From Chiridota heheva (Eukaryota; Echinodermata; Holothuroidea; Apodida; Chiridotidae), in assembly GCA_020152595.1 (NCBI GenBank), contig JAIGNY010004510.1:62001-126000 (forward strand): a DNA stretch of 64,000 bases, read 5' to 3'. Within the stretch, counting starts at the first letter, position 1, and each line of letters starts with the position of its first letter. The notes under the pieces were generated by a model. The model saw nothing but the letters and a program-made list of their open reading frames with translations. It searched no databases and was not told the DNA's origin. A program made the position numbers and the translations under genes. Positions 1,723 through 60,880 of the stretch are shown one piece after another.

Positions 1723-2283
1723 GTAAAGTGGTCACTTCATACCTATAACACTATTAACTGGTGAATACGGCTGGACTGCTTGTAGTTTTCTGTTTCTGCC
1801 ATTTCATAACTGTGGATCTTGTATGCTTATTTTTATCTCACTGAGCCGCGTAAACATCTGATTGATCCTTCAGAACTTACAGTAGTTATGTTCTGGTCTG
1901 GCTATTAGATCTGGCTGTCACCGTTTAGTGTGTACGTTAGCACTAAATGTTCGCAAATGCGCTAAACGTTTACTAATTATCGAAATAGTCAAGACTTGCC
2001 GGTTTAGTGTGTACGTTAGCGCTAAATGTTTGCAAATGCACTAAACGTTTACTAATTATCGAATGAGTTAAGACTTGCCGTTGAAAATCATTATCAATCA
2101 AATCACACACACAATTGGCTGACAAAATTCCAATCAATGACTTTTACAAACTGTAAACCCAATCAGCATAATCCAAATGTGCAGTAATCACCTACAGTAT
2201 GAATGGGTCATTCCATGTCAATCATCCCAAAGAATTTAAAGGTAAATAAAACAGTCTCAGAATTTCTTCAAAATTGGTTGAAT

Positions 2284-3180
2284 GTAATGTTTATCACTGA
2301 TGTAATGTTTATCACTGATGTAATGTTTATCACTGATGTAATGTTTATCACTGATGTAATGTTTATCACTGATGTAATGTTTATCACTGATGTTACAGTA
2401 TGTTTATCACTGATGTAATGTTTATCACTGATGTAATGTTTATCACTGATGTAATGTTTATCACTGATGTAATGTTTATCACTGATGTTATGTTTATCAC
2501 TGATGCAATGTTTATCACTGATGTTATGTTTATCACTGATGCAATGTTTATCACTGATGTAATGTTTATCACTGATGTAATGTTTATCACTGATGTAATG
2601 TTCATCACTGATGTAATGTTTATCACTGATGTTATGTTTATCACTGATGTAATGTTTATCACTGATGTAATGTTTATCACTGATGTAATGTTTATCACTG
2701 ATGTAATGTTTATCACTGATGTAATGTTTATCACTGATGTAATGTTTATCACTGATGTTACAGTATGTTTATCACTGATGTAATGTTTATCACTGATGTA
2801 ATGTTTATCACTGATGTAATGTTTATCACTGATGTAATGTTTATCACTGATGTTATGTTTATCACTGATGCAATGTTTATCACTGATGTTATGTTTATCA
2901 CTGATGCAATGTTTATCACTGATGTAATGTTTATCACTGATGTAATGTTTATCACTGATGTAATGTTCATCACTGATGTAATGTTTATCACTGATGTTAT
3001 GTTTATCACTGATGTAATGTTTATCACTGATGTAATGTTTATCACTGATGTAATGTTTATCACTGATGTAATGTTTATCACTGATGTAATGTTTATCACT
3101 GATGTAATGTTTATCACTGATGTTACAGTATGTTTATCACTGATGTAATGTTTATCACTGATGTAATGTTTATCACTGAT
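2284..3180. repeat. 18-bp minisatellite, left half, with a 365-bp higher-order duplication
   Basis: About 50 units of TAATGTTTATCACTGATG. Blocks beginning at about 2393 and 2758 are apparently identical over 365 bp, each opening with the variant junction GTTACAGTATG. Because 18 is a multiple of three and the unit lacks stops in some frames, both strands show long artefact frames (MFITDV, INITSV). Confidence 0.95.
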
Positions 3181-3182
3181 TA

Positions 3183-4388
3183 GGCTTGGGCGATATATCG
3201 ATATTTCGATATATTTCGATATTGACCTATATCGATATGGCCGATATTGAGTTCAAGGGTCATATCGATATATCGATATTATGTTTTTTTTAAAATACAC
3301 AATACATGAATTATTAAAAAGCTAAACATGACTATCAAACATCCAAGTATTTTTTTATTAAACAGCCACAAAAACTTAATGAATTTCATTTATATCAAAG
3401 TTTCAGGCACTCAGTTATGATAAAACTTATTAAAACATTAATATTGTGATAACAATAACCCCAAAATCCTTCCATGAACAAAAAACCACTTGACTCATGG
3501 AGCACAGAGGCATTGCGCAATACTTCAATTTTATACTTGATGGCTTACGATGTTGGACAACAAAAATCATAAGTTGTTGAATCCTCAAACATCGTGTTAA
3601 ATTTCCTCAAAAGGAATACTGAATCTGAATTTTTATATCAAACAATCATTAATTGACAAATTACTGACAAAACTATGAGGTTTTTCTCACTATTTTGTTC
3701 GCTCAGAAAGTTTAAAGTAAAAGTTACAGACTGGTCTTACCAGATCGATCAGATAATGTACAGTGCATTAATTACATACACTTAGTATCACTGTACAGTC
3801 TATGTACACACATACCATCTAGGCTATCACTGTTTCTTCTGAGTGACAACACTCGTGCGATGATTGAAGCAGACTAGAAATTGATAATACGATCATATAT
3901 AGACTTCTGAATGTCTAGAAGTCCATATAATGCTACCAAAATAATGCCTTTTCAGTACAACTTTCATAAGAAGTAAGTGAGTTATAAAATTTTAGGAAGA
4001 ATTGGAGCCGATTTTCGTAAGGCATACAGTGTAGGCCTAATACCAGTTCCACAACATTTTTTTTTTTTTTTAAGATTATGTTGAGGTCTAAACTTTTTCA
4101 AAGTTTCTGTGATTGATCTTTTGAGATAGAAACCATGTAAAGAACATTTTAAAACACAATGGGTGTTTATTTGAAGATGATATGTTTATATTTTGCAGTG
4201 ATTTCTGTTAATTTGTACAAAAAGTTTTACTTAACTTTTTTTTTTTGAGCCGAGGCGAGATTACCTTGCCCAGAACAGTACATACGACTTACGATGACGC
4301 CCCATAATTTGCATATCGATATTTCGATATTATCGATATTTTACAGGCGATATATCGATATTGCATCATGTTCAATATCGCCCAAGCC
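3183..4388. mobile_element. TA-flanked TIR element, copy 1 (GGCTTGGGCGATAT ends)
   Basis: Inverted ends GGCTTGGGCGATAT and ATATCGCCCAAGCC are flanked by TA on both sides, inside the 18-bp array. The subterminal regions are dense in CGATAT words. No transposase is visible. A TA duplication suits Tc1/mariner-type transposition, but the ends alone do not prove it. A second diverged copy lies at 7926-9054 in the opposite orientation. Confidence 0.85.
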
Positions 4389-5332
4389 TATCACTGATGT
4401 AATGTTTATCACTGATGTAATGTTTATCACTGATGTAATGTTCATCACTGATGTAATGTTTATCCCTGATGTAATGTTTATCCCTGATGTAATGTTTATC
4501 ACTGATGTAATGTTTATCACTGATGTTATGTTTATCACTGATGTAATGTTTATCACTGATGTAATGTTTATCACTGATGCAATGTTTATCACTGATGTAA
4601 TGTTTATCACTGATGTAATGTTTATCACTGTAGAACGTTTATCACTGATGTAACGTTTATCACTGATGTAACGTTTATCACTGATGTAACGTTTATCACT
4701 GATGTAACGTTTATCACTGATGTAATGTTTATCACTGATGTTATGTTTATCCCTGATGTAACGTTTATCACTGTAGAACGTTTGTCACGGATGTAATGTT
4801 TGTCACTGATGTAATGTTTATCACTGATGTAATGTTTATCACTGATGTAATGTTTATCACTGATGTAACGTTTATCACTGATGTAACGTTTATCACTGAT
4901 GTAATGTTCATCACTGATGTAATGTTCATCACTGATGTAATGTTCATCACTGATGTAATGTTTATCACTGATGTAATGTTTATCACTGATGTAATGTTTA
5001 TCACTGATGTAAGGTTTATCACTGATGTAACGTTTATCACTGATGTAACGTTTATCACTGATGTAACGTTTATCACTGATGTAACGTTTATCACTGATGT
5101 AACGTTTATCACTGATGTAACGTTTATCACTGATGTAACGTTTATCACTGATGTAACGTTTATCACTGATGTAACGTTTATCACTGATGTAATGTTTATC
5201 ACTGATGTAATGTGTATCACTGATGTAATGTTTATCACTGATGTAATGTTTATCACTGATGTAATGTTTATCCCTGATGTAATGTTTATCCCTGATGTAA
5301 TGTTTATCCCTGATGTAATGTTTATTACTGAA
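4389..5332. repeat. 18-bp minisatellite, right half
   Basis: About 52 units continuing the array on the far side of the inserted TA element. This half is richer in variants, with blocks of TAACGTTTATCACTGATG and TATCCC units, and grades into unique sequence ending at the element's right inverted repeat. Confidence 0.95.
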
Positions 5333-6796
5333 AAAAAGCCAAATTTTCAATTTTTAGCAAAATCGGATAAACGGTCAAAAGTTACGAGGAAATCATGGAA
5401 AATTTGAGACAATTATTGAGGCCTTAAAAATGAAAATCCAGTCGTTTTTAATTACCAAAATCAAGTTAAATCAAGTTATTAACATTTAATTATGAACATA
5501 TCTGAAATTTGGGATGAAAATACCCTTTCAAAAATATATTGACTGTTATTTTGTAATTTAGTTATGTCAATGAATTTCATAGAGGCTGCAGTCAAATGGC
5601 TGTTTTAAGTCTAAACATGGCTCTGAAAATTGTTTTAAATTTCCTCAGATTTTTCATCAAAGGAAGAGAGTTTTTGAATTTTTTGTGCAGGAAATGGATG
5701 CTAACAAATTTATTTATCTCGATTCTCGACGGTCCGTAACTTTTGATCCATAGGTCTGATTTCGCTTAAAATGAAATTTGGTTCTTTTCGGTGATAACAA
5801 TTGCATACAACGAATGTTTAACAAATTCTGAGATAGTGGTGTATTTTCCATTGGGTGATCTGACATGGAATGACCCGAATGGGAATATTTTGCACTTTGA
5901 TTTTGCTTAAATCCGAGTAACTTGTGAAATGCACCGTGAATTTGCAGCAGTAAACAAACAGTGAACTGGTGGAACTAACAATAGGCCATAACCTTAGGCT
6001 TTAATCCCACCCAATCAATACCCGTTTTACAAGCTGTTAAATCGATTCCAAAACACACGGTCAAGATACTTTAATCGTGACAATCAGTACACTTACATTT
6101 ACATGTAAATATTACTTAATGAGTCAAATTTTGCAAGAAAGCAAAAACGTATTGCAAAATAACTGAACAAAAAAAGGTTTTAACAAAGCTGAAATTCTGC
6201 GTGCTTTGCAAACATGGTGGCCAATTTTTCCAGAGGATTGATATGAGCAATACTTCTGGGGTGGTGGCGTAGTTTTGAAATGTTTTATTGTGAGGTATCA
6301 TAGTATGTAAGATTTCACAGTGAAAGCCCTAGCGAGTATGGCAAAAATGTTACGTGATGTTGAGACTAAATGACTTTGAAGGGAAGTTATCTGTTCGTTC
6401 TAAACTGAATTTCCATGTACGTTTTCCATAAAAAATGACGTTTTATACTGTAGAAATAAACTTTTCACAATTTGGAAAGCAGAGTTTTAGCGTCTATTTG
6501 GGCAATGTGGTCGATACTTTTGCCATACTGGTGGTTGCATGAATTTTTTACTTAGCATCGTAAATTGGAGCAATTTTGGTGTACTTTTGAAAATTACAGC
6601 ACTAAACGCGTGTAACCGGTACAGGCTTGCATTTTTTGGCGTGTACACATTTACTAAAATCCCTAAATGTTTACAGCTCTACTGGCTATTGCTCGCATTT
6701 GCATTTGATATATATGAAGTATGACAAATTGAGGTGTTTTAGGCATATCCACCATGAAAGCGGACATTAAAAGAGAAAATGATGAAGTAAACATCT

Positions 6797-7866: not shown

Positions 7867-7925
7867 ATGTCAGGAGAAGCAGGATAGTCTTTGCATACTG
7901 TAGTAAACAAATATATACATTGTTA

Positions 7926-9054
7926 AGCTTGAGCGATATTCACCTTTAGACAATATCGATATATCGCTAGATATATACCGATAATATCGAAATATTGATA
8001 TGCAAATTGCAAAACGTCACATTGAAATAATATAACTTGTTTTGTAACAGGTAATATTGCTCCAGAACAGAAAATAGAAAGTACAAATTTTAAAGTAAAT
8101 TGACAGAACTGAATGGTAAATATGTACATAAATCTTCAAATTAACATCCATTATTACATCCGAAAGAAATTGTTTTTTACATTGTTTCTTTCTCAAAAAA
8201 TAAATCACAAACATTGAAATTCCATAAATTTGAACATATCATTTTTTCACTATTTTCGTGGCACTGGTATATAGTTTTTTTTTAAAATGAAAATGGGCCA
8301 ACTTTACCTTCGAATGCTAGGCCCCACTTGTTTTGAATTTCCTACATTTTTGCACTCTTTTTTAAAGACCTGGACATTCAGAAGTCAATAGATATTTATA
8401 GAAAATGTCTTCTGCTACTTAAATCGGACGAGTGGACTCAGAAATCTACACACACTGTTTGTACTTGTGCTGCTTACTGTACAGAAAGTGTGATGTGTGA
8501 ACGGACAAACTAGTGGGAAATATTTTTTAGTGTTAGGGATGAAATCTTTTAGTTTTGAGGATAAAATCTACTTTCAGGTGTCAATTAAGGGCTTTTCCAC
8601 ATAAATTTGGGAATGCGGTATTCCTTTTGAAAAATTTAGATGCGATGTTTAAGGATTTAAGATCTCATTGATTGCAATTGCTCAACCATTACAAATCATA
8701 AAAATTGACTTATATTATTGCGCAATGTCCATAGCGGCCTGTACATACAGAGTACAGTACTGTATGTCCGAAATAAGAATTTCCTGCCTGCGGAAGATAA
8801 TTTTAGGTAATATGTATTGAAATATTGATGACATAATCAACTCTTAACATTATTGACTGCCTGAAACTTTGATATTATTACAAATTACAAACTTTTTGTG
8901 GCTGTATAGTGAGGAAAGGTGCATGTTTGGTTGTCATGTTAACTTCATTAGTAGTTCATGTATAGTACAATATCGGTGTAAAACATATCAATATATTGAT
9001 ATGACCCTTGAACTCAATATCAATATGGGTCAATATTGATATATCCCCTAAGCT
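7926..9054. mobile_element. TA-flanked TIR element, copy 2 (diverged, inverted)
   Basis: Ends AGCTTGAGCGATAT and ATATCCCCTAAGCT with TA on each side, and CGATAT-type words near the ends. Interior words such as the segment around 8865-8910 match copy 1 on the opposite strand. No coding region is visible. It is more diverged than copy 1. Confidence 0.8.
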
Positions 9055-9200
9055 TATACATTGTGAGATTTTGTTGATGTGGGAATGTTTGCATATTAAT
9101 CACATTGTTTAGTTTTTAGTAAAATAACTTTGATTTATCGTGAACAAACATGATCAAAAATTGGTATTTTCAGAACAAAATACCAAAACTCACAATTGTG

Positions 9201-12000
9201 GGAGTATTTGATGTCTCTTCAAGCAAACTTATGACGTCTTTAAAACAGGGTTTGCACTGGCTTTGGATGTTTGGGAAGGAAATTCCTTCTTTCAAGAAAG
9301 TTTTGGTGGCGATTTCAGAATTTTGTTAGGGAATTGTAGGCAGACGATACCAAAGTTTACAAACACAATTTATCAACAAACATAACCTGGCCTCTGCAAG
9401 ATGTTCATTCATTCATAAATTTACAGTCGCTTTATAAATTTCTTTTTATCACTAATATATTGATTGTATACAGTGCTGGATATCATAGTTACAGAAAACG
9501 ACTGTAGTTGGAGACTAGTTACAAATTTCACCACCTACACACCTTGGTCACGTTTCGTTGTATACATTTAAGTACGTAAGGGATCCGTTCATTACCTCGC
9601 AAATTATAAGAATTATTTTACCGATAACAATAACCTACACCAAACTAAAAACCTGTCGTTCCGACCCCCCAGACAGGATTAACACTGAAGAGCAAGTGTT
9701 GATTCCGTCTATACATATATGTAAAGGTCCGGACCTTCGCGCGTAGGGATTCAGTTCGTCAAAGTAGTCTGTGAGCGGGTTGGTTACCTTGGCTCTGGCT
9801 CGACCGCTATCACCCTTCGGATCCACCGCGAGCGGTCGATCCATCTAGGTTTCCGTTCGCGGATACTGGTGGGTTGATTTTACAAGCCCGCCCACTGACG
9901 GCTCCGTTACCGCTCACCCCAGTTCGGGGTCAGTTTCTGCCAAGCCGGCTTCGCAAATTCTCAGTCGCGGTCTGATTTAATTCCCATAAGCGGTCAGCAA
10001 GTCAAAACGCGCCCGCCTCAGCCGGTGATGGCCTGCGGTCTAAACAGTGCTCTAAATGCCGGCAGTTTATGGCACTGTTTCCTGTGGACGGCCACCCGAT
10101 TGTTATCGGTGCAGCCCTGCGGCAGAGCTCAGACATGTTCCATTTGTCGAGCGTGGGACGGACAGTTTTGGTCTGACTTGGAAGATTTTCGAGAGGTGAC
10201 TGCCAAGGCCTCGACAGCCAAAGAGCTCGTGACTCGCCTGACGTCACCGCCAGAGGGTCCCACACCCTGTGGGCGCCTGTCGCCCTCTACCAGCCACAGC
10301 CGGGACCTGGCTGTAGACCAAGCGAGCTACACACGCGAGTGCCCGGGCGGTCAGCGAAGTCGCCACGGTCATGCACTTCCCTGCAGTCCGTTTCCTGGAG
10401 CAGGTCACGGAGTGTCCGTGAGTGCCGCACTGGTCCAGACGCAGGGGCGCCGCTCCTGGTCACGGACCAAGAGCTCCTCTCGCAGCTTTGATGACATGCT
10501 GTCAGTCCACCCGTCGGATGGAGGGTTTTCAGACCTGGACGTGCCCTTGGCCGCTCCTGTGTCCCAGGACCCGCACCCCAGGGACTCGGTGTTCCCTGCA
10601 GTGGCTTCGGCTTTTGAGCTGTTTACAGGAATGTCACACTTGGGAGAACCGTCGGTAAACAGGCCAGTTCTGGCGGAAAGGGACTTGTTTTCTTCTGCCC
10701 CTACCGCGGCTCCACTGCCCGCCGAGTGTGACATTACTCAACTCCTGAACTCGATACATTCCCAGCCGGGTATGATATTCGAGGCAGGATTGCCAACGGA
10801 AGCGTCCTCGCACCATCAGCTTCGCCAGCTGATTCCGGTGGTGCCTGCGACGGAATCTATGGCTCCGATTCGTAGATTCCCCCTGGAAACGTTGGTAAGG
10901 ACGCGTTTTTAGGCATGGGCTAGGACGCAAACACGAGATTGGACGTCCCACCCCAAGGACTTGAACCGCCTAGTCAATGTTTGCGAGGCGAATTATCAGT
11001 CCTGCATTCGGTCTCACCCAATTCCGCAGGAGGTCTTCAATCTCCTTCAATGTCCAAGTTCCGGAGCGTCACGCGTTATGGTGGGTGAAGGATGCGGTCC
11101 AAGGTTGCGCGATGCAGCCTTGCACCACAAAGAGACTCTCCACGCCCTTGATCGTGCCGCCAAGACGGGGATCAAGTTTCAAGGCTTGGCGCTTTGGGTG
11201 GCCGAATGTGTAAGACGTACTGTGGAGCCCTCCAAGGACTTATCAGAGCGCATTGAACCCCTGCTACGAGGGATCTTAGGCCTGGCCGACGCCACTGTCG
11301 GTCAGCTGTTCAATTTCCGCCTCGCTGAACGCCGAAAGCGCGAAAAGGTACTCCCTCTCCTGGGCCTTGATCTCTGACCACAAAGCAGGCCATTTTGGGG
11401 ACGTAGTGTCCCGACAGGCTCAGCACTAAGATGCCCTCCGTAAGACTCAAAAGCTGTTGAGCAAGACCCATCCTGTGCCGACCACTTCCCAACCCCTGTC
11501 TAGGGGTGGCCGCTCTCCTGGCTCTGCACGAGGTAGGAATTGGAGACGTAGGCCCAGTGGTCGTCCGGGCAGGGGGCATGTCCCTACTGGACAAAATCTT
11601 GGGCAGGTCACCGTGACCCAAGGGGGTCGCCGCTTCATGCCATCGGCGGACTTCACAGACACCCTACTAAATCTGGGCGTGTACAGAGAGACACCCGTGC
11701 CACAGGACACCGAGCTCGATGGCCGCTGCTGGACAAGCTTGCGAAACTCCTGGTAAAGGGAGCGGTCTCAGAACTCCACGCCCTACCGGCGGGTTTTTTC
11801 TTGTCGACCTTCTTCCTCGCCCCTAAGAAAGGCGGGAAGTGGAGGCCTATATTAAACCTAAAACCACTGAATTGCTTTGTACGCCCCACGCATTTCCGCA
11901 TGGAGACCCTTCATACAATTCTACCCAAGCTACACCAAGGTTGGTGGGTGACGTCAGTCGATCTGACAGACGCCTACCTCCACGTCCACCCGAACCACAG
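9201..12000 (+). mobile_element. DIRS element 5' part, duplicated copy 1 (truncated in RT)
   Basis: This 2,800-bp block repeats immediately as 12001-14811. It contains about 300 bp of AT-rich leader, a GC-rich gag-like region (about 10000-11750) and the first 67 or so codons of the reverse transcriptase (from 11801). It ends abruptly after DAYLHVHPNH. The two blocks differ mainly by single-base insertions and deletions in GC-rich runs, so frames in this copy are broken at different places. It cannot encode a complete enzyme. Confidence 0.85.
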
Positions 12001-12839
12001 GGAGTATTTGATGTCTCTTCAAGCAAACTTATGACGTCTTTAAAACAGGGTTTGCACTGGCTTTGGATGTTTGGGAAGGAAATTCCTTCTTTCAAGAAAG
12101 TTTTGGTGGCGATTTCAGAATTTTGTTAGGGAATTGTAGGCAGACGATACCAAAGTTTACAAACACAATTTATCAACAAACATAACCTGGCCTCTGCAAG
12201 ATGTTCATTCATTCATAAATTTACAGTCGCTTTATAAATTTCTTTTTATCACTAATATATTGATTGTATACAGTGCTGGATATCATAGTTACAGAAAACG
12301 ACTGTAGTTGGAGACTAGTTACAAATTTCACCACCTACACACCTTGGTCACGTTTCGTTGTATACATTTAAATGCGTAAGGGATCCGTTCATTACCTCGC
12401 AAATTATAAGAATTATTTTACCGATAACAATAACCTACACCAAACTAAAAACCTGTCGTTCCGACCCCCCAGACAGGATTAACACTGAAGAGCAAGTGTT
12501 GATTCCGTCTATACATATATGTAAAGGTCCGGACCTTCGCGCGTAGGGATTCAGTTCGTCAAAGTAGTCTGTGAGCGGGTTGGTTACCTTGGCTCTGGCT
12601 CGACCGCTATCACCCTTCGGATCCACCGCGAGCGGGTCGATCCATCTAGGTTTCCGTTCGCGGATACTGGTGGGTTGATTTTACAAGCCCGTCCACTGAC
12701 GGCTCCGTTACCGGCTCACCCCAGTTCGGGGTCAGTTTCTGCCAAGCCGGCTTCGGCAAATTCTCAGTCGCGGTCTGATTTAATTCCCCATAAGCGGGTC
12801 TAGCAAGTCAAAACCGCGCCCGGCCTCAGCCGGTGATGG

Positions 12840-14240: not shown

Positions 14241-14599
14241 GATGCCCTCCGTAAGACTCAAAAGCTGTTGAGCAAGACCCATCCTGTGCCGACCACTTCC
14301 CAACCCCTGTCTAGGGGTGGCCGCTCTCCTGGCTCTGCACGAGGTAGGAATTGGAGACGTAGGCCCAGTGGTCGTCCGGGCAGGGGGCATGTCCCTACTG
14401 GACAAAATCTTGGGCAGGTCACCGTGACCCAAGGGGGTCGCCGCTTCATGCCATCGGCGGACTTCACAGACACCCTACTAAATCTGGGCGTGTACAGAGA
14501 GACACCCGTGCCACAGGACACCGAGCTCGATGGCCGCTGCTGGACAAGCTTGCGAAACTCCTGGTAAAGGGAGCGGTCTCAGAACTCCACGCCCTACCG

Positions 14600-15860
14600 G
14601 CGGGTTTTTTCTTGTCGACCTTCTTCCTCGCCCCTAAGAAAGGCGGGAAGTGGAGGCCTATATTAAACCTAAAACCACTGAATTGCTTTGTACGCCCCAC
14701 GCATTTCCGCATGGAGACCCTTCATACAATTCTACCCAAGCTACACCAAGGTTGGTGGGTGACGTCAGTCGATCTGACAGACGCCTACCTCCACGTCCAC
14801 CCGAACCACAGAAAGTTTCTCAAGTTTGCGGTAGCGGGTCGGATGTACGACTTCTGGGCTCTACCTTTCCGGCTCTCCATGGCTCCAAGGGTATTCACCA
14901 GGGTCACCCGAGTGTTCGGGGCACACCTGCGACGACTCGGCATACAGGCGTACATGTATCTGGACGATTGGCTTATAGTGGCATCGGATCGTCACACAGC
15001 CTTCCGAGATACACTAAGGGTAGTTCAGGAGGCAGAAGCCTTTGGGTGGATAATCAACCAGGAGAAATCGGACTTGGTACCGTCCCAATCTCCTCGGTTT
15101 CTAGGTGCGATTTTGGATTTCCAGAGCGGGATTGCTCGTCCGACTCCAGAACAAATCCTAGCAGTCCACGAAGGTGCCTGACTGCTCAGGCAACAACCCC
15201 AGTCCACAGCGCATGCGTGGCTAGTGTTTCTGGGTTACCTTGGCCAGTTTGGTGGATATCGTGCCATGGTGCCCATTCCACAGGCAAGACCTTCAGTTCC
15301 ATTTGCTCCGCTTCTTCGATTCGTCAGCGCGCGACCTCTCTGTCCCAGTACCACTCTGGGCGGATGTCGCAGCGGCCATTGCATGATGGCAAATCCCTAC
15401 CCACCTCACAGTGGGCATGCCTTTTACCTTTCCGAGGGAGAGCGTTACCTTGGTTACGGACGCTTCCCTTTCGGGATGGGGTGGCCACTTCGGCACCCAC
15501 AAGGCAGCAGGGTATTGGATGGGTTTATGGCTGGAGCACCATATCAATAACTTGGAACTGGAAACGGTCCGCAGGGCAGCCCTCCAGTTTGTGGAGCTAA
15601 TCCGCGGCAAGAGTGTCCTTCTTCGGACAGACAACACCACAGTAGTGGCGTACATCAATCGCCAGGGCGGCACGAGATCAGCTCCCCTGTGGCAATTGAC
15701 CAAGGAACTCATGACGTGGTGCAGGCTCCACAAGGTCTCCGTACGAGCAGTACACTTGCCGGGGAAGGAGAACACAGTAGCGGACCTTCTGTTCCGTCTG
15801 TCGGACTCACCGACGGAATGGTCTCTTCTCCCGTCTGTAGCCCAGATGATTTGGGCACAG
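14600..15860 (+). pseudogene. DIRS reverse transcriptase / RNase H
   Basis: RT motifs: FLAPKKGGKWRPILNLKPLN, VDLTDAYLHV (first catalytic Asp), WALPFRLSMAPRVFT and YMYLDDWLIV (LDD box). The frame stops at about 15181. RNase H continues in another frame from 15411, with TDASLSGWGGHF, LELETVRRAALQF, RTDNTTVVAYINR and ENTVADLLFRLSD supplying the Asp/Glu positions. The break between RT and RNase H means no intact polyprotein. Confidence 0.88.
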
Positions 15861-16324: not shown

Positions 16325-18290
16325 GTGGCTGCGAACTTTCGAAGGAGGTCCACTGTGGCCATGTATTCGGAAAGGATTCAAATCTTCGCCAACTGGTGTG
16401 CGGACCGACAAATTGCTTCAACTTCAGCCTCTGTAGGGCAAGTTGCGAATTTCTTGTTGTCTCTCTTTATTGATGGGTTGCAGATTTTCTCCATTAAGGG
16501 TAATCGATCGGCTATAGCCACTATCCATACGGGTTTCACTGATGGCACGTCGGTGACGGACTCTCCTGACCTCCTCAATCTGGTAAAGGGCCTGTTCCTT
16601 CGTCGGCCAACGGTGAGAACCTTAGCTCCACCATGGAACATGTCGGCCGTTCTCGTAGCCTTGGCCACCACTAGAGCTGTGAACGTTTAGGGATTTTAGT
16701 AAACGTGTACATGCCAAAATAAGCGCGCGTTTATCATGTACACGAGTTTAGTACCATAATTTTCGAAAATACACCAAAATTGCTCTAAAACTACAAGGCG
16801 AAGTAAAAAAATCGCGCAACCAGTATGGCAAAAGTACTGACTGCATTGCCCAAATAGACGCTGAGTTTTGCTTTCCAAATCGTAAAAAGCTTACTTCTAT
16901 AGTATAAATTATCATTTTTGTGGAAAATATGCATGGAAATTCAGTTTAGAAAGAACAGATAACTTCCCTTCAATGTCATTTAAACTCAACATCGCGTAAC
17001 TTTGTTGTCCTATTCGCTACGGCTTTCAAAGCTCTGTGAAAATCTTGCATATCGAGGTACCTCGCCGTAAAACATTTTAAAACTACGCCACCACAACTAG
17101 AAAGTTCTGAAATATCAGTCCTATCGAAAAAATGGCCGCCATCTTTTCGAAGCATGCAGAATTTCAGCTCTGTTAAAACCTTTTTCTGTTTATTTATTAT
17201 GCAATATTTTTTCTTTCTTGCAGAATTAATTTGACTCATCAGGTAATATTTACATGTAAATGTACTGATTGTCACGATTCAAGTGCTTTTTGGTCGATAA
17301 AACGAGCCTTGATTGCGTGGGATTTAAAGCCTTATGGCCTAACGATAGACCTATTGTAGTTTCACTGTTTACTGCTGCACATTTGCAGTGCATTTTACAA
17401 GTTAAATTACTCAGATTTCGGCGATATCAAAGTGCATAATATCCCCATTCATTGGTGATTACTGCGCATTTGTGATTCGCACATTTAAAAAGGATTATGC
17501 TAATCGGGTTTACAGTTTGTAAAAAGTCATCATTGATTGGAATTTTGTCAGCCGAATGTGTGTGTGATTTGAATCATGAATATTGATTTTCAACGGCAAG
17601 ACACTATGTATGAAAAACGATTACTCCCAATGAAGTATTTAGTAAACGTTTACAAGATTTGCGAGCGTGTAACGTGTACACGCTAAACAGATCTAGCCAC
17701 CACTCCTTTTGAACTGCTTACCACAGCCTCGTTAAAGCATGTTACGCTCAAAGCTGTGTTTTTGTTAGCGGCTGCTTCAGCTAGGCAGTGGAGCACCTTA
17801 CATGCGCTGTCTATCAAGGAGGGACACCTTCGTTTTGAAAACGATGGGGTGCACCTGGTTCCTGATCCCACGTTTTTGGCCAAGAACCAGACGCTGGAAT
17901 TTCTACCAAAAGCGATTTACTTGTCGAAGATCGAGACGTTCTCAGGAGTCGCGGCAGATCGGGTTTGGTGTCCCGTAAGGGCGCTGCGTTGTTACATTAA
18001 AGCTACACAGTCTCTCCGGGGACGGCATGACAGACTCTTTATATCCCTGAATAAGCCCCACACCCCTGTATCGATTGATACGATATCAAGGTGGCTTGTG
18101 GAGGTCATTAAGTTGGACGAGTCTGCTTTGGCTCGAGGTAAGGGTAATATTCGAGCGCATTTAATTCGGGGGATTTCCACCTCGCTGGCACTATTTCGGC
18201 GAGTCGACATCTGGGAAATAATGGCCGCAGCGGTTTGGAACAGCATTCACATTCACGACATCCTACTTGCGAGATGTGTCTTCGGATGAA
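16325..18290 (+). pseudogene. DIRS tyrosine recombinase, split by a hAT-like insertion
   Basis: The N-terminal part (16325-16671) has FANWCADRQIA and VGQVANFLLSLF. The C-terminal part (17696-18290) has AASARQWSTLHALS, holding the first catalytic Arg, and IRAHLIRGISTSLALF, holding the HxxR pair. The expected TSYLRDVSSDE segment with the nucleophile Tyr is readable only in a different frame near 18265, so a small indel also breaks the end. The hAT-like element 16672-17695 removes function. Confidence 0.85.
16672..17695 (-). mobile_element. hAT-like nonautonomous element (copy B)
   Basis: Ends TAGAGCTG and CAGATCTA with an exact 8-bp duplication GCCACCAC at 16664-16671 and 17696-17703. Removing the element and one duplicate rejoins the recombinase reading frame, which confirms the boundaries. 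It is 1,024 bp with no visible transposase. It is the reverse complement of copy A and lacks copy A's nested insertion. Confidence 0.92.
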
Positions 18291-18419: not shown

Positions 18420-18840
18420 GCCGCAGTTACCCCCCCCCCCTTCCCCCCCCCCTCTCCTAGGTAGGGGGCGGGACTATTGCCCACCTTTCCGCAGAAAAAA
18501 ATGGGAGTCTGTGCATATTTATAGTATGACAGGAAAGCTATAATTTGAAGTAAATCCACCCCACTTACCGTAGTGGGGGTATTTACGAGAATTATACTAA
18601 CCTGTCATACTTCCCACCCACCTCCCCGGTTAGTCCCGGTTGGCGGTGCGAGAGTATGAGTTGTATGGGATGCGACGTGAGTGATAAGGTGGAGTAGGAA
18701 TGGTAACTGCGGTTTTTAGTTTGGTGTAAGGTGCGATAATAGAGCACATAACTGAGAGAGTGCATATTTATAGTATGACAGGTAAGTACAATTCTCGTAA
18801 ATACCCCCACTACGGTAAGTGGGGTGGAAATATCCCATGT
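18420..18840. repeat. DIRS terminal region: 56-bp inverted repeat and C-rich tract
   Basis: Arms at 18556-18612 and 18772-18827 are inverted copies with only a few mismatches (CCACCCCACTTACCG at the outer end, CTGTCATACT at the inner). A direct repeat GCATATTTATAGTATGACAGG occurs at 18522 and 18762. Runs of C lie near 18430-18455. DIRS elements end in inverted repeats and an internal complementary region. I do not find the matching left terminal repeat near 9.2-9.6 kb. Confidence 0.75.
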
Positions 18841-23086: not shown

Positions 23087-26000
23087 GGGAACAGGCGATT
23101 ATTAATCGCCGTGTATCGCCGTTTTTTTTCTGAACAAGTTAATGACCTGTTACTAAGGCTTTAATCGTCACACATCAATGCCCAAATCCTGAGAGTACCG
23201 ATCACAGCCAAAACAGTTATATTCTCTGCAGTGCACACACCGAAATAAGCTCCTTACAATAACAATAGAAGCTGTACTTTGGACTGGCCACGTATCGAGC
23301 GCGTCAGTTTTACAAGTGTGCATAGAAAAGTTTTCACTGATCTTGCCTGCTTTTAACTACATTGACGAATATATAAAATAGCCTAAATTCATTTTCTGTA
23401 TGTAACTTTTATGATTATTTAGCTGTATGTCATCTCTTTATGTATGATGCTGCACATTTAAATAATGTGTTTTTTTTCTTTCCACAGCTGAAGACAAAAT
23501 TAAAAAATTAAAACAGCTGAAGCAGAAAAAAAAAAAAAATCTCCGCCCAAGTGTAGAATTCTAATTTAAATTATGAAAAAAATATACCTAGCATATTAAG
23601 ATCTACAGTACCGATGCGAGCAGTTTGACAATTGCGCCGGTAATTTTACTGCTGGTAAGCTGCCGATAAAACGCCGGTAAAGTGCTGGTAATGCCGCCGG
23701 TAAAGCGCCGAGAAAAAAAACCGTTCTCGGAGCCAAAAACGTAGTGTTAGTTTTCATGCAACTTGCGATTTAATTTTTAAATAAAAAGATACTATCACGA
23801 GCATTATTTTTCAATCACAACTCTTATTTCTTTCAGCGAGGAAAGTCTTCGGTCTACTGTTTACGTCTGCACACGTACCGAATCTGCAAATTTCTTTAGT
23901 TCAGATACGTTTAAACTGATGTAAGTTTGCCGTTTTAAGCAAAATTAAATATTTTATTTCCCGTGTCTTTTTAAAGGACACAGATCAGCCCACAATAAAT
24001 TGGTAACGACAATGCAGAGCGTACCACAGAGATTTACGATCATTATTTATTTTCAACAAGTTCAAAAAAAAATACAAACTGAAAAACCCCGTGGCAACGC
24101 AACTTGTGTCTGCACTATCAGGCGGGCCGCGACGGCCATTTTTTTTTTCATAAATTGTAAAATGAAAATTGAATAAAATAATATCAACTAAAACTAAAAA
24201 GATAAGCGAAATAGAAAGGATCGGCGCAATAAAAATAAACAAGTTTAACTTACTGAGATTTCCATGTTTTATTCCGAAATATATAGTATTCCAAATAGTC
24301 GTAAAATTTTACTATTTAAAAATATTTCCACCAAAATATTAAGAAACGTTGTCACAAACTTGTTAATATGTAGTTCCATATACAGAAAAAGTGAAACGAA
24401 AGAAAATAGAAAAAAATAAATAAAATGAGAACAATTAAAATTCTGAACTAAGTACTCTTTGCTCAGTGTAGACCTCCATGTTGAAAACAATGCATCAAAA
24501 TCTGTCCGAAAGTTCGAAATCCGCGACGTGTAAGTAAACATAAACATACATGTTGCTCCCACTATTTGATAAGCCCAGGTGCAAAATAATTTCTTTATAG
24601 ATTAGATCGTGCGAAAATGTCTTTTTTTTTTCGACAGATATATTATAATTCTTATCCGAAACTTACGAACATTAAACTCCATTAACATTAATCTCTATGA
24701 AACACATACCGCAAAAACACGGCAAACTTCTAAAGAATCGATAATAATCATGCTGCTCCATTCCCAGCACTTTTGACAGATTTGTTTACAAATTGACGCC
24801 AGCTGTATCTGGACTTGGGCCTAGCGCGGTCCAATTAATTAAGATTGGCACATTTAAAGGGGAATACTTACGATTTTCACATTTAAGGAGAAATACTTAA
24901 AAAGGTATATGCCCCCTCTCGAATTTCATGTTGGCTTTCAAATATTTGAAGTCTAAAGACATAAACTTGAGTTTGGTGTTTATGGAAAAGGGACTGGGGA
25001 TCACAGCGATTAATAGCGATTTAGAGGGGTACTCCAGAGTGATTCCTTCTTCTACATGTTTAATTTAATATTATCAGGCTATCGAATTTAGGTGGGGGTA
25101 TTCTCCTTTATGAACAGATACAGTAATTTGGTAGATTATCTTGTCCCCTCTCTAATTTCCCCACAAAAATTAAAGTATAACAACAGCAAGAAGTTTTTTA
25201 TGATCTCCTAGCTCGTTTGCAAGTTGAAGCGACAAACTGGGATCGTTGAACTATTGAATTTGGGGTGGGGGCATTCTCTTTTATGAAAACATAATTTTGT
25301 AGATCGTATCGTCCCCTCCCCTATTTTCTTAAATTAATAATATTAATATTACGAATAGGAAGAAGTGGTGGATAGGGGTAGGGTGGAGGTGGCAGTGCCA
25401 TGGTTCTTTTTTAAGATCTCTCCGTTTCAGGTTTCAAATGGCAAATTTGATCACCAAACATTGAATTTGTGGGGGTAATTCTTTTTACTGTGAAAACATA
25501 CTTGGTATATGATATTGTCCTTCCCTCTCCCCATTTTCATTTGTTTTCCCGAATGAAGATAAGGCGATGCTTCAATCATCCCTCTCCGGTGCTCAGTGAA
25601 TTTCCTCATATTTCTTACTTCACAAAATGTTAGATGTCCACTCCCCCTCCCGGTTTTGGTATTGTTGTCTTTTTTTTTTTTTTTTACGGCTTTCCTCCAT
25701 TTTGAATGTTTACATAAAAGTGTCATGCGTGCAGCATGTCTTTAACAACTTAGCGCCGCGTGGCCGAGGAGTTCGAGGAAACCTGTCGCCAGGTTATAAA
25801 CCACCCAGAAGTAGTAACATGTGAAGGGGGACGCGGGCGGCATATCATTGAACGAGATATTTTGTTGTTTTTCTGACACAGTTCTAATGATTTTTAAAAA
25901 AGTAGAATTTATACTGATGCGATGTGTGGTAATAATTTGCTATACATTAACTTGGCGGCCATTAACTGGGGCAACAACAGGGTGTGTTAAAACTGATCTT

Positions 26001-26526
26001 TTGTAAGTTTGCGTAATGTTTCCCAGGAACCAACGCATTAAATAGCAGGCCTTTTGGAACGGGGGTTAGGAAACTGTTGTGGAAGCCTGACCACGATGGG
26101 AGTAAATAGTTACATTAAAAAATAACATTTTTATCAAAAGACAGTCATTGATGCATCGTGAGTTTTTGTTATAAATATATCTTTTATTATAATCATATTT
26201 TTCTTGTCAATGATCTGTAAAACTGTTGTAAAGTAGAAAAGACAATTTGTTTTCTTTTTTATTGAAACTTTATTGCTTCGACGGGAACAGCAATTTTATG
26301 TTAGATTCAACAACATAAGTGTACATCATACGTCAAGTGTATTGGGTGCAAATGCAACTTCCTCAACAGGTATTGATTGGTAGACATCCTGTGGACTTGA
26401 CTCATTTACTTACACTGGGGGTTATAGAGTGTTACGTAGTTGTAACCAGGGTATTATGCATAGAATATTCACACAACAGGTCCCAAAAATCGGCAATGCA
26501 CGGCGATTAAATAATCGCCTGTTCCC
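23087..26526. mobile_element. PIF/Harbinger-like nonautonomous TIR element
   Basis: Inverted ends of about 27 bp start GGGAACAGGCGATTATTAAT and match on the other strand at 26526 with one extra T. They are flanked by TTA at 23084-23086 and 26527-26529. A 3-bp TWA duplication is characteristic of PIF/Harbinger. Each end contains the palindrome GGCGATTATTAATCGCC. The 3.4-kb interior has no recognisable transposase. It splits the LINE reverse transcriptase. Confidence 0.85.
24890..25560. repeat. Diverged tandem units of about 180-200 bp inside the Harbinger-like element
   Basis: The pattern GAATTT..GGGGG..ATTCT..TTATGAA..CCCCTC recurs at about 25083, 25255 and 25463, with a weaker match near 24910. 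These are old, decayed duplications. Confidence 0.6.
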
Positions 26527-40769: not shown

Positions 40770-41795
40770 ACTCGCTCACAAGTCCTTGCCATTGAAAATC
40801 AATATCATTCATGATTCAATCTAGTTATTCGTCCTATATCCCGTTCCAGGTCTTTTACTTTTCCACTGTTCTGTGTTTTTCTTGTTGGCTGACATTCACT
40901 GATTGTGGTTGTTTATTGTCCCAGTGATAACATACGTGAACGTGGGTTTTGACAATAACCAGATTCAATCACACACATTCGGCTGAAAAAATCAATGACT
41001 TTACAAACTGTGAACCCGATTAGCATAATTCTTTTTAAATGGGAGAATCACAAATGCGCAGTAATCATCTATGAATGGGAACATTTTCACTTTGATTTTT
41101 TCGAAATCTGAGTAACTTGTGAAATGCACCATGAATGTGCAGCAGTAAACAGTGAAACAAAGAATAGGCCATAATGTAAAGCTTTAAATCCCACTCAATC
41201 AAGGCCCGTTTTACAAGCTGTTAAATCGACCAAAAAACACGGTCAAAATACTTGAATTGTGAAAATCAGTACATTTAGATGTAAATATTATGTGATGAGT
41301 CAAATAAATTGTGCAAGAAAGAAAAAATATTGCACAATAAACAAACGGAAAAAGGTTTTAACAAAGCTGAAAGTCTGCGTGCTTTGCAAATATGGATGGC
41401 GGCTATTTCGAGAGGACAAATATGATCAGAACTGTTAGGGTTGGTGGTGTAGTTTTGAAATGTTTTACGGCGAGGTATCATAGTATGCAATATTTTCATA
41501 GTGAAAGTTAAAAAGTGAAAGTCCTAGCAAGTCCCACAAAAAAGTTACGCGATGTTGAGATAAATGACATTGAAGGGAAGTTTTCTGTTGTTTCTAAATT
41601 GAATTTCCACACATATTTTCCAGAAAAATGGTGATTTATGCTGTAGAAATAAAATTTTCATGATTTAGAAAGCAAAATTCCAGCATCTATTTGGGCAATG
41701 GAGTAGATATTTTTGCTATACTGGTTGTGCGGTTTTTTGTGTTTTGGTGTACTTTCTGAAAAGTACAATACTAAATGCATGTAAACTCTACACGC
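40770..41795 (+). mobile_element. hAT-like nonautonomous element (copy C)
   Basis: The interior matches copy A in the same orientation: CTTGCCATTGAAAATCA, GCAGTAATCATCTATGAATG, GTAACTTGTGAAATGCACC, ATTTGGGCAATGGAG. Both ends are eroded and I cannot see the 8-bp duplication. A 140-bp element is inserted at 40822-40961. Confidence 0.75.
40822..40961. mobile_element. 140-bp MITE inside hAT-like copy C
   Basis: The direct repeat GATTCAATC (40813-40821, 40962-40970) flanks a 140-bp insert whose ends TAGTTATT and AATAACCA are near-inverted. Copies A and B lack it. A 9-bp duplication would suit a Mutator-like element, but the inverted repeat is too short to be sure. Confidence 0.65.
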
Positions 41796-42304
41796 TTGCT
41801 TTGAAACAGTAAAACTGCTGGTATTCTAACATAATGACTCAAAGAAAATGTTAAAATTGCTTTTGAATTGCAAATTATAAACTCTGAATGCGATGTGTTG
41901 AGAGCAACATAACTTCTTTTCTATTCTCTCAAACTTTTCATTCTGATTACACTCTACCTCGCACTTTTCCACCTAACCTTTTGTTTTGCACCATCATTTT
42001 CCGGGATTGTCTCTCTGTGGATGGGTGTCTACTTTTGGTGAGATCGTTCCTTTTGTTTTTCCCTCCCGTTGTGACCATGCCTTCATGCCTTTTTTGATAC
42101 CTGCACAGTGGTTCTCATATAGTAGTTCCACAATTGTTTTTTTCTAGTTGTTCCGGCTCTCCCGGCCCTTGGTATTTCTTTCCATTATGATCAAACACTT
42201 CTGCCTTGACCTTGGCCCTCTCTCTCCTCCCTGTAAACCACCTGCTACCTCCATTGACCATTCCTCAGCCCCAGTCCCCAAAATTTTAATCATTTAGGCC
42301 ACCA

Positions 42305-59911: not shown

Positions 59912-60442
59912 TAGCCACTCAATTAGCCAAGTTTATCAGTGGAACCCCTCAAATGTTTGGCTCAATTAGCCAAATTTATCAGTGGAACCCCTCAAATGTT
60001 TGGCTCAATTAGCCAAATTTATCAGTGGAACTCCTCAAATGTTTGGCTCAATTAGCCAAATTGATTAGCGGAACCCCTCAAATGTTTGGCTCAATTAGCC
60101 AAATTTATCAGTGGAACTCCTCAAATGTTTGGCTCAATTAGCCAAATTTATCAGTGGAACCCCTCAAATGTTTGGCTCAATCAACCAAATTTATTAGTGG
60201 AACCCCTCAAATGTTTGGCTCAATTAGCCAAATTTTCAGTGGAACCCCTCAAATGTTTGGCTTAGCCAAATTTATCAGATGTTTGGCTCAATTAGCCAAA
60301 TTTATTAGTGGAACCCCTCAAATGTTTGGCTCAATTAGCCAAATTTATCAGTGGAACCCCTTAAATGTTTGGCTCAATTAGCCAAATTTATCAGTGGAAC
60401 CCCTCAAATGTTTGGCTCAATTAGCCAAATTTATCAGTGGAA
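59912..60442. repeat. 43-bp minisatellite, about 12 copies
   Basis: Unit CAATTAGCCAAATTTATCAG followed by TGGAACCCCTCAAATGTTTGGCT, with one shortened unit near 60255. Confidence 0.95.
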
Positions 60443-60880
60443 CCTATGAAAGTCATCCCTAAATTCAAAAAGGACATAAGTATGAAATAAATATTGAACT
60501 GAATACCTAGACAAAACAGTGTCCTACGACTAGAGTATGGAAAGAATTATGCCAGTGTCATTCAAGGTGTTGTAGGCTTTTCTTTCCTGACAAAACCTGA
60601 TTTAAAAATATGATAAATAATGCTGTTTTCATTCTCAGTGGCCTTGCTCTCATTATCTGTTACTAAAATAGTAAGATGACAGCTGAATTTTGTCGCTTGG
60701 AGAAGCTAGGATTGTGCAAGCTAAGAGTCTATGAAGTTTCTTTGCTCACCTAAATGTAAAGTCACAAGCTCTTCTTGTATGGTTGCTATCTCATAAACCA
60801 GAGAATGACATAAGAGAAAGTAAACAATACTTTCTTGGTTCAATACAGATATTTATTTATCATGAAATTTCTATTTCCAG

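Follow-up and report, generated by a model that had tools for sequence, protein, structure and literature searches.

An 18-bp minisatellite and the terminal repeats of a MITE-like element in a nest of three small DNA transposons from Chiridota heheva

Tandem arrays within transposons

Hikosaka and colleagues reportedly described, in 2000 and 2004, the MITE Xmix of Xenopus together with its tandem repeat Xstir. Xmix is a MITE with an internal segment amplified as a tandem repeat; it belongs to the T2-MITEs, has TTAA as its target and is presumed to be a Kolobok element (PMC6004289). A review that counts terminal repeats as one of the prevalent origins of tandem arrays gives the terminal inverted repeat (TIR) in its table as the source of Xstir (PMC9659126). 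The foldback element Tetris of Drosophila virilis carries tandem repeats in its TIRs, for which duplication of a part of the original TIR has been suggested, and its TIR-220 units of ~220 bp form part of these TIRs (PMC4079207). BrickBuilt, from the bacterium Porphyromonas gingivalis, holds a 23-nt minisatellite within a MITE, the array being located between leader and tail subunits with small inverted-repeat ends, and the abstract states no terminal-repeat origin for this minisatellite (PMC4596501). Coral MITEs are reported to form tandem arrays (PMC2872659).

We analysed a 64,000-nucleotide stretch of the holothuroid Chiridota heheva (assembly GCA_020152595.1, contig JAIGNY010004510.1, positions 62,001 to 126,000 of the forward strand; hereafter the window, with coordinates counted from its first letter). 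It contains three small DNA transposons, one inside the other, i.e., an outer element O (1906-6681), a middle element E2 (2205-5876) and an innermost element H (3181-4390), and a long 18-bp array inside E2. Arrays derived from terminal repeats are already known from Xmix/Xstir and Tetris, and E2 is another, unusually legible example, with the expansion in one arm only. E2 resembles Xmix in being a MITE-like element with an amplified internal segment, but differs in its target, GAAT rather than TTAA; it shares with Tetris the tandem repeats in the TIRs, but has an 18-bp unit in one arm in place of the ~220-bp units; and it is like BrickBuilt in combining a minisatellite with a MITE, but does not share the bacterial host or the leader-and-tail arrangement. 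The coral arrays did not look like the E2 case. No transposon paper was apparent, by titles and abstract starts, among the matches listed in literature searches on the termini of E2 and H, and no like case was found by title among the matches listed for a nested insertion with minisatellite, MITE, target duplication and hAT.

Three nested elements and their target duplications

The sequence-only reading of this locus described a four-layer nest with clean target duplications at every layer. The nesting is real, and three of the four named layers (O, E2 and H) have such duplications; however, there are three insertions and not four, as the remaining layer, the 18-bp array, has no target duplication and is, judged by its flanks, an expansion of E2's own end. 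The outer element and its relatives in the window are as follows.

1898 to 1905, no strand: left target duplication of O, 8 bp, CTGGCTAT
1906 to 6681, forward strand: outer element O, with termini TAGATCTG and TAGAGCTG (the latter as reverse complement), enclosing E2, the array and H
1923 to 2080, forward strand: 79-bp unit of O's left end, duplicated in tandem (two copies, 92% matches)
6682 to 6689, no strand: right target duplication of O, 8 bp, CTGGCTAT
16672 to 17695, reverse strand: complete relative of O, 1,024 bp, lacking E2, with its own target duplication GTGGTGGC and the same kind of ends as O
40785 to 41802, forward strand: relative of O without intact ends, lacking E2 and holding a different small insertion

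An outer element with an 8-bp target duplication had been proposed, and CTGGCTAT indeed flanks O on both sides; the flanking repeat can also be read longer, as CTGGCTATT, and the 8-bp reading is the one given by the symmetry of its inverted ends. The status of O as a family follows from the complete relative, which has a different 8-bp duplication of its own, and the 8-bp length expected of hAT elements is thus found in both copies. O is therefore described as hAT-like, an assignment that would follow from duplication length and termini and that leaves room for other superfamilies with 8-bp duplications. In the alignment of the complete relative the 79-bp unit of the left end of O is single. 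The copy without intact ends carries an insertion of ~141 bp (40821-40961), flanked on both sides by GATTCAAT, at a site that differs from that of E2.

2201 to 2204, no strand: left target duplication of E2, 4 bp, GAAT
2205 to 5876, forward strand: middle element E2, with a perfect 16-bp outer TIR, GGGTCATTCCATGTCA, inside a longer, diverged TIR of ~140-150 bp
5877 to 5880, no strand: right target duplication of E2, 4 bp, GAAT

The 4-bp GAAT duplication claimed for the middle element is present on both sides of E2. Since the target continues with GGG and E2 starts with GGG, the flanking repeat is readable as 4 to 7 bp (GAATGGG); we use the 4-bp reading because the ends are then symmetric, GGG...CCC, with up to 7 bp being possible. 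In both of the two other O copies the insertion site reads ATGAATGGG with a single GAAT, which shows that E2 inserted into O, and deletion of E2 with one GAAT restores an alignable O. The empty-site versions of O that had been pointed out earlier are in this respect as described, but the one at ~40.8-41.8 kb lacks intact ends. Had the inner element stood at the same spot in every other O copy, the nest could have been one composite family; its absence from two of two other copies in the window is evidence against this, from a sample of two.

With the array expansion and H subtracted, E2 measures ~640 bp by arithmetic, and it has the features of a MITE, being short and non-coding with TIRs (16 bp perfect) and a target duplication (GAAT). 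MITE families are further marked by many copies and by a target duplication of constant length. All copies available for comparison lie within the window and amount to two others of O, one other of H and none of E2, for which the window yielded nothing beyond short weak matches. A scan of viral contigs with the E2 terminus returned two loci that agree with the E2 end over just 16 bp and were taken as chance. Kolobok/T2-MITE elements are marked by a TTAA target and a terminal AGGRR motif (PMC6004289), and E2 was rejected as a member on account of its GAAT target and GGGTC ends.

3173 to 3180, no strand: left target duplication of H, 8 bp, TCACTGAT
3181 to 4390, forward strand: innermost element H, hAT-like by target duplication and ends, with TIR TAGGCTTGGGCGATAT and subterminal CGATAT clusters at both ends
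4391 to 4398, no strand: right target duplication of H, 8 bp, TCACTGAT
7924 to 9056, reverse strand: relative of H outside the nest, with its own 8-bp target duplication ACAATGTA on both sides

The innermost element is not a TA-flanked one, as had been proposed; its target duplication measures 8 bp. Taking out H with one copy of TCACTGAT restores the 18-bp phase of the array exactly, whereas the junction is out of phase if H is removed on the TA reading, and the relative of H is likewise bounded by an 8-bp duplication. A Tc1/mariner assignment with a 2-bp TA target was rejected on these two grounds. As for O, the repeat flanking H can be read longer, as TATCACTGAT, and the 8 bp were chosen from the symmetry of the inverted repeats. 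Short TIRs combined with subterminal repeated motifs are typical of hAT elements. H has an 8-bp duplication, a perfect 16-bp TIR and such motifs, all 20 of the 20 occurrences of CGATAT or ATATCG in H lying either in the first 100 bp of the element or in the last 80. This fits a hAT-like non-autonomous element, the hAT-like part of the assignment resting on the 8-bp duplications of both H and its relative and on the ends of H; local matches between the two are 71-73% identical.

The reading frames listed wholly inside H reach at most 67 amino acids, from which we conclude that H has no transposase of its own. Of the 42 frames of at least 40 amino acids listed for the region, 10 from O, E2 and H were scanned, three of them from H, and none matched Pfam at an E value of 1 or below. 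All three elements look non-autonomous, with transposases assumed to be encoded elsewhere, and as no transposase was found, their superfamily names remain putative labels based on duplication length and termini. In the window at large, 10 of 52 long frames were compared with Pfam; three gave matches of reverse transcriptase/RNase H type, and one gave a weak unrelated match. The RVT_1 matches at 11552-12031 (E 1.5e-4, which falls short of the curated cut-off) and 14363-15178 (E 8.8e-16) are retroelement fragments.

Two further elements lie downstream of the nest. One, at 23087-26526, has inverted ends GGGAACAGGCGATTATT.../...AATAATCGCCTGTTCCC placed 3.4 kb apart with TTA on both sides, and presumably is of PIF/Harbinger type; the other, at 18555-18828, is a MITE-like hairpin of 274 bp with 57-nt arms that are 96% complementary. 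An exon-like stretch at ~1646-1722, identified by eye, is preceded by a T-run and AG, followed by GT and open in one frame; the nest may lie inside an intron. The RT-like frames, this apparent spliced exon and the load of repeats would point to an animal source.

Origin of the 18-bp array

The sequence-only reading took the minisatellite for an inserted layer of its own. The array has neither ends nor a target duplication, and its unit and both of its flanks are present in the right arm of E2. The relevant features are listed below.

2205 to 2281, forward strand: left terminal repeat of E2, outer part, before the array
2282 to 5330, forward strand: 18-bp array of ~101 units, split by H, interpreted as one unit of E2's left terminal repeat expanded in place
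5332 to 5385, forward strand: left terminal repeat of E2, inner part, after the array
5735 to 5876, reverse strand: right terminal repeat of E2, the unexpanded arm
5789 to 5806, reverse strand: single unexpanded 18-bp unit, ATGCAATTGTTATCACCG, in the right terminal repeat

Read inward from 5876, the right arm first corresponds to the left arm between 2205 and the array, next shows one unit, and finally corresponds to the post-array sequence beginning at 5332. The order is colinear, and exactly one unit plus one base separates the two flank matches. Each comparison was set against 2,000 dinucleotide-preserving shuffles. The segment before the array scores 72 against the right arm (shuffle maximum 41) and the segment after it scores 56 (shuffle maximum 39), and none of the 2,000 shuffles reaches the score in either case; for the second test the right-arm stretch was chosen after the alignment had been seen. 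Comparison of the single unit is weak when taken alone, its score being reached by 18 of 2,000 shuffles. When the whole window was scanned on either strand in 50-bp steps, neither flank of the array had a better match outside itself than the right arm.

The case for the origin of the array is thus carried by the colinear flanks. Because the unit and both flanks occur in the same order in the other arm, the array, as judged from this colinearity, arose by expansion in place of 18 bp from E2's left terminal repeat, and it qualifies as a TIR-derived tandem repeat in that its unit is located within the element's own terminal repeat (5789-5806). The window is rich in tandem repeats (66 rows), from which we made our own selection of 21 array regions, including the array of the nest and omitting several short ones; among these 21, no array other than that of E2 is bracketed by inverted repeats. 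The array at 59918-60444 gave a 68% inverted match, but this match is located within the array itself.

Order of events and age of the array

The order of events had been said to be directly readable. This applies to the entry of E2 into O and to that of H into the array, both of which are backed by empty sites and target duplications, but not to the full order, because growth of the array may precede or follow the insertion of E2. An insertion order of O, then E2, then H is supported. Very probably, O, E2 and H inserted in this order and 18 bp of the left terminal repeat of E2 expanded in place. In this explanation the hAT-like O, ~1.1 kb without its inserts, landed in the locus with duplication of 8 bp, and the MITE-like E2, of ~640 bp and with diverged terminal repeats of ~140-150 bp, then landed in O with duplication of GAAT. 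A segment of 18 bp in E2's left terminal repeat was copied in tandem to ~101 units, its counterpart in the right arm staying single, and the hAT-like H inserted into the array with duplication of 8 bp of it. The insertions with their target duplications, the empty sites and where the array came from are shown by the sequence itself; tandem growth could be due to slippage during replication or to unequal exchange, and the three elements would have been mobilised by transposases encoded elsewhere.

Divergence values did not behave as anticipated, the inner families having been expected to be younger. The trend is the opposite, i.e., Kimura two-parameter (K2P) distances of 0.194-0.216 between O copies taken pairwise (n 686-716), 0.295 between the left and right arms of E2 (n = 140) and 0.508 between H and its relative (n 1095; full-length alignment, the middle of which is poorly alignable), all of these being differences between family members or arms, none of which dates an insertion. 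Ordering the layers by family divergence was therefore abandoned. Arms that were identical at the time of insertion should differ no more than the O copies do, and on this reasoning the arms of E2 were probably unequal before E2 entered O, or the sampling error over 140 sites is large; the comparison is only suggestive.

The same comparison bears on a sub-case of the main explanation, in which E2 moved with its array already grown, as a mobile carrier of a minisatellite, so that the array would be older than the O site. The greater apparent divergence of the E2 arms suggests that the asymmetry predates the insertion, and MITE-borne amplified repeats are known from Xmix/Xstir (PMC6004289); on the other hand, the comparison involves one E2 copy, and a long array might hamper transposition, as has been suggested for Tetris (PMC4079207). 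We regard this sub-case as quite conceivable, if on balance somewhat doubtful.

Whether grown before or after the arrival of E2, the array was probably in place when H inserted. It splits into 101 units with 14 spellings, the commonest of which, ATGTAATGTTTATCACTG, occurs 52 times, and it includes one highly regular part.

2282 to 3180, forward strand: part of the array with an exact higher-order period of 365 bp (20 units), 534 of 534 compared positions being identical

The exact run stops where H begins on its left; once H is taken out of the unit order, the 365-bp period would run ~2 units further and then break, and the block duplication may be older or younger than H. Beyond H the array is heterogeneous and without this period. 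Three unit variants are shared by the two sides of H, i.e., ATGTTATG... (6 left, 1 right), ...GTTCATC... (2 left, 4 right) and ATGCAATG... (4 left, 1 right), the left counts being doubled by duplication of the 365-bp block, and three others are one-sided (0/16, 0/5 and 3/0, left/right). H is placed later than the array because of the three variants shared across it, which point to a mixture of units being present already on the arrival of H; recurrent mutation is possible.

The identity of all positions compared at a 365-bp shift might also be taken to mean that the array was formed or enlarged in part by sequence assembly, with the exact blocks as an artefact. We consider this improbable, since such an artefact would touch the periodic part alone and leave untouched the heterogeneous array to the right of H. 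A rival with four insertions in succession, in which the minisatellite is a layer of its own and the innermost element a TA-flanked one of Tc1/mariner type, would accommodate the length of the array, its position inside E2 and the TA at either end of H, but is very hard to reconcile with the colinear unit and flanks in the other arm of E2, with the array phase that is kept by the 8-bp reading and broken by TA, and with the 8-bp duplication of the relative of H.

The transposon nest in itself is ordinary transposon biology. In the preferred explanation, i.e., insertion of O, E2 and H with expansion in place of 18 bp of an E2 terminal repeat, the unexpanded right arm acts as an internal control, indicating which 18 bp became the minisatellite, and where, without recourse to a second genome, and the case illustrates how expansion of an element's own terminal repeat can pass for a nested layer. 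A more tentative and rather unlikely extension is that the E2 family makes minisatellites again and again from one and the same 18-bp piece of one terminal repeat and spreads them through the genome. If this were true, the unexpanded second arm would preserve the starting unit within each copy, and the birth of minisatellites would be traceable copy by copy.
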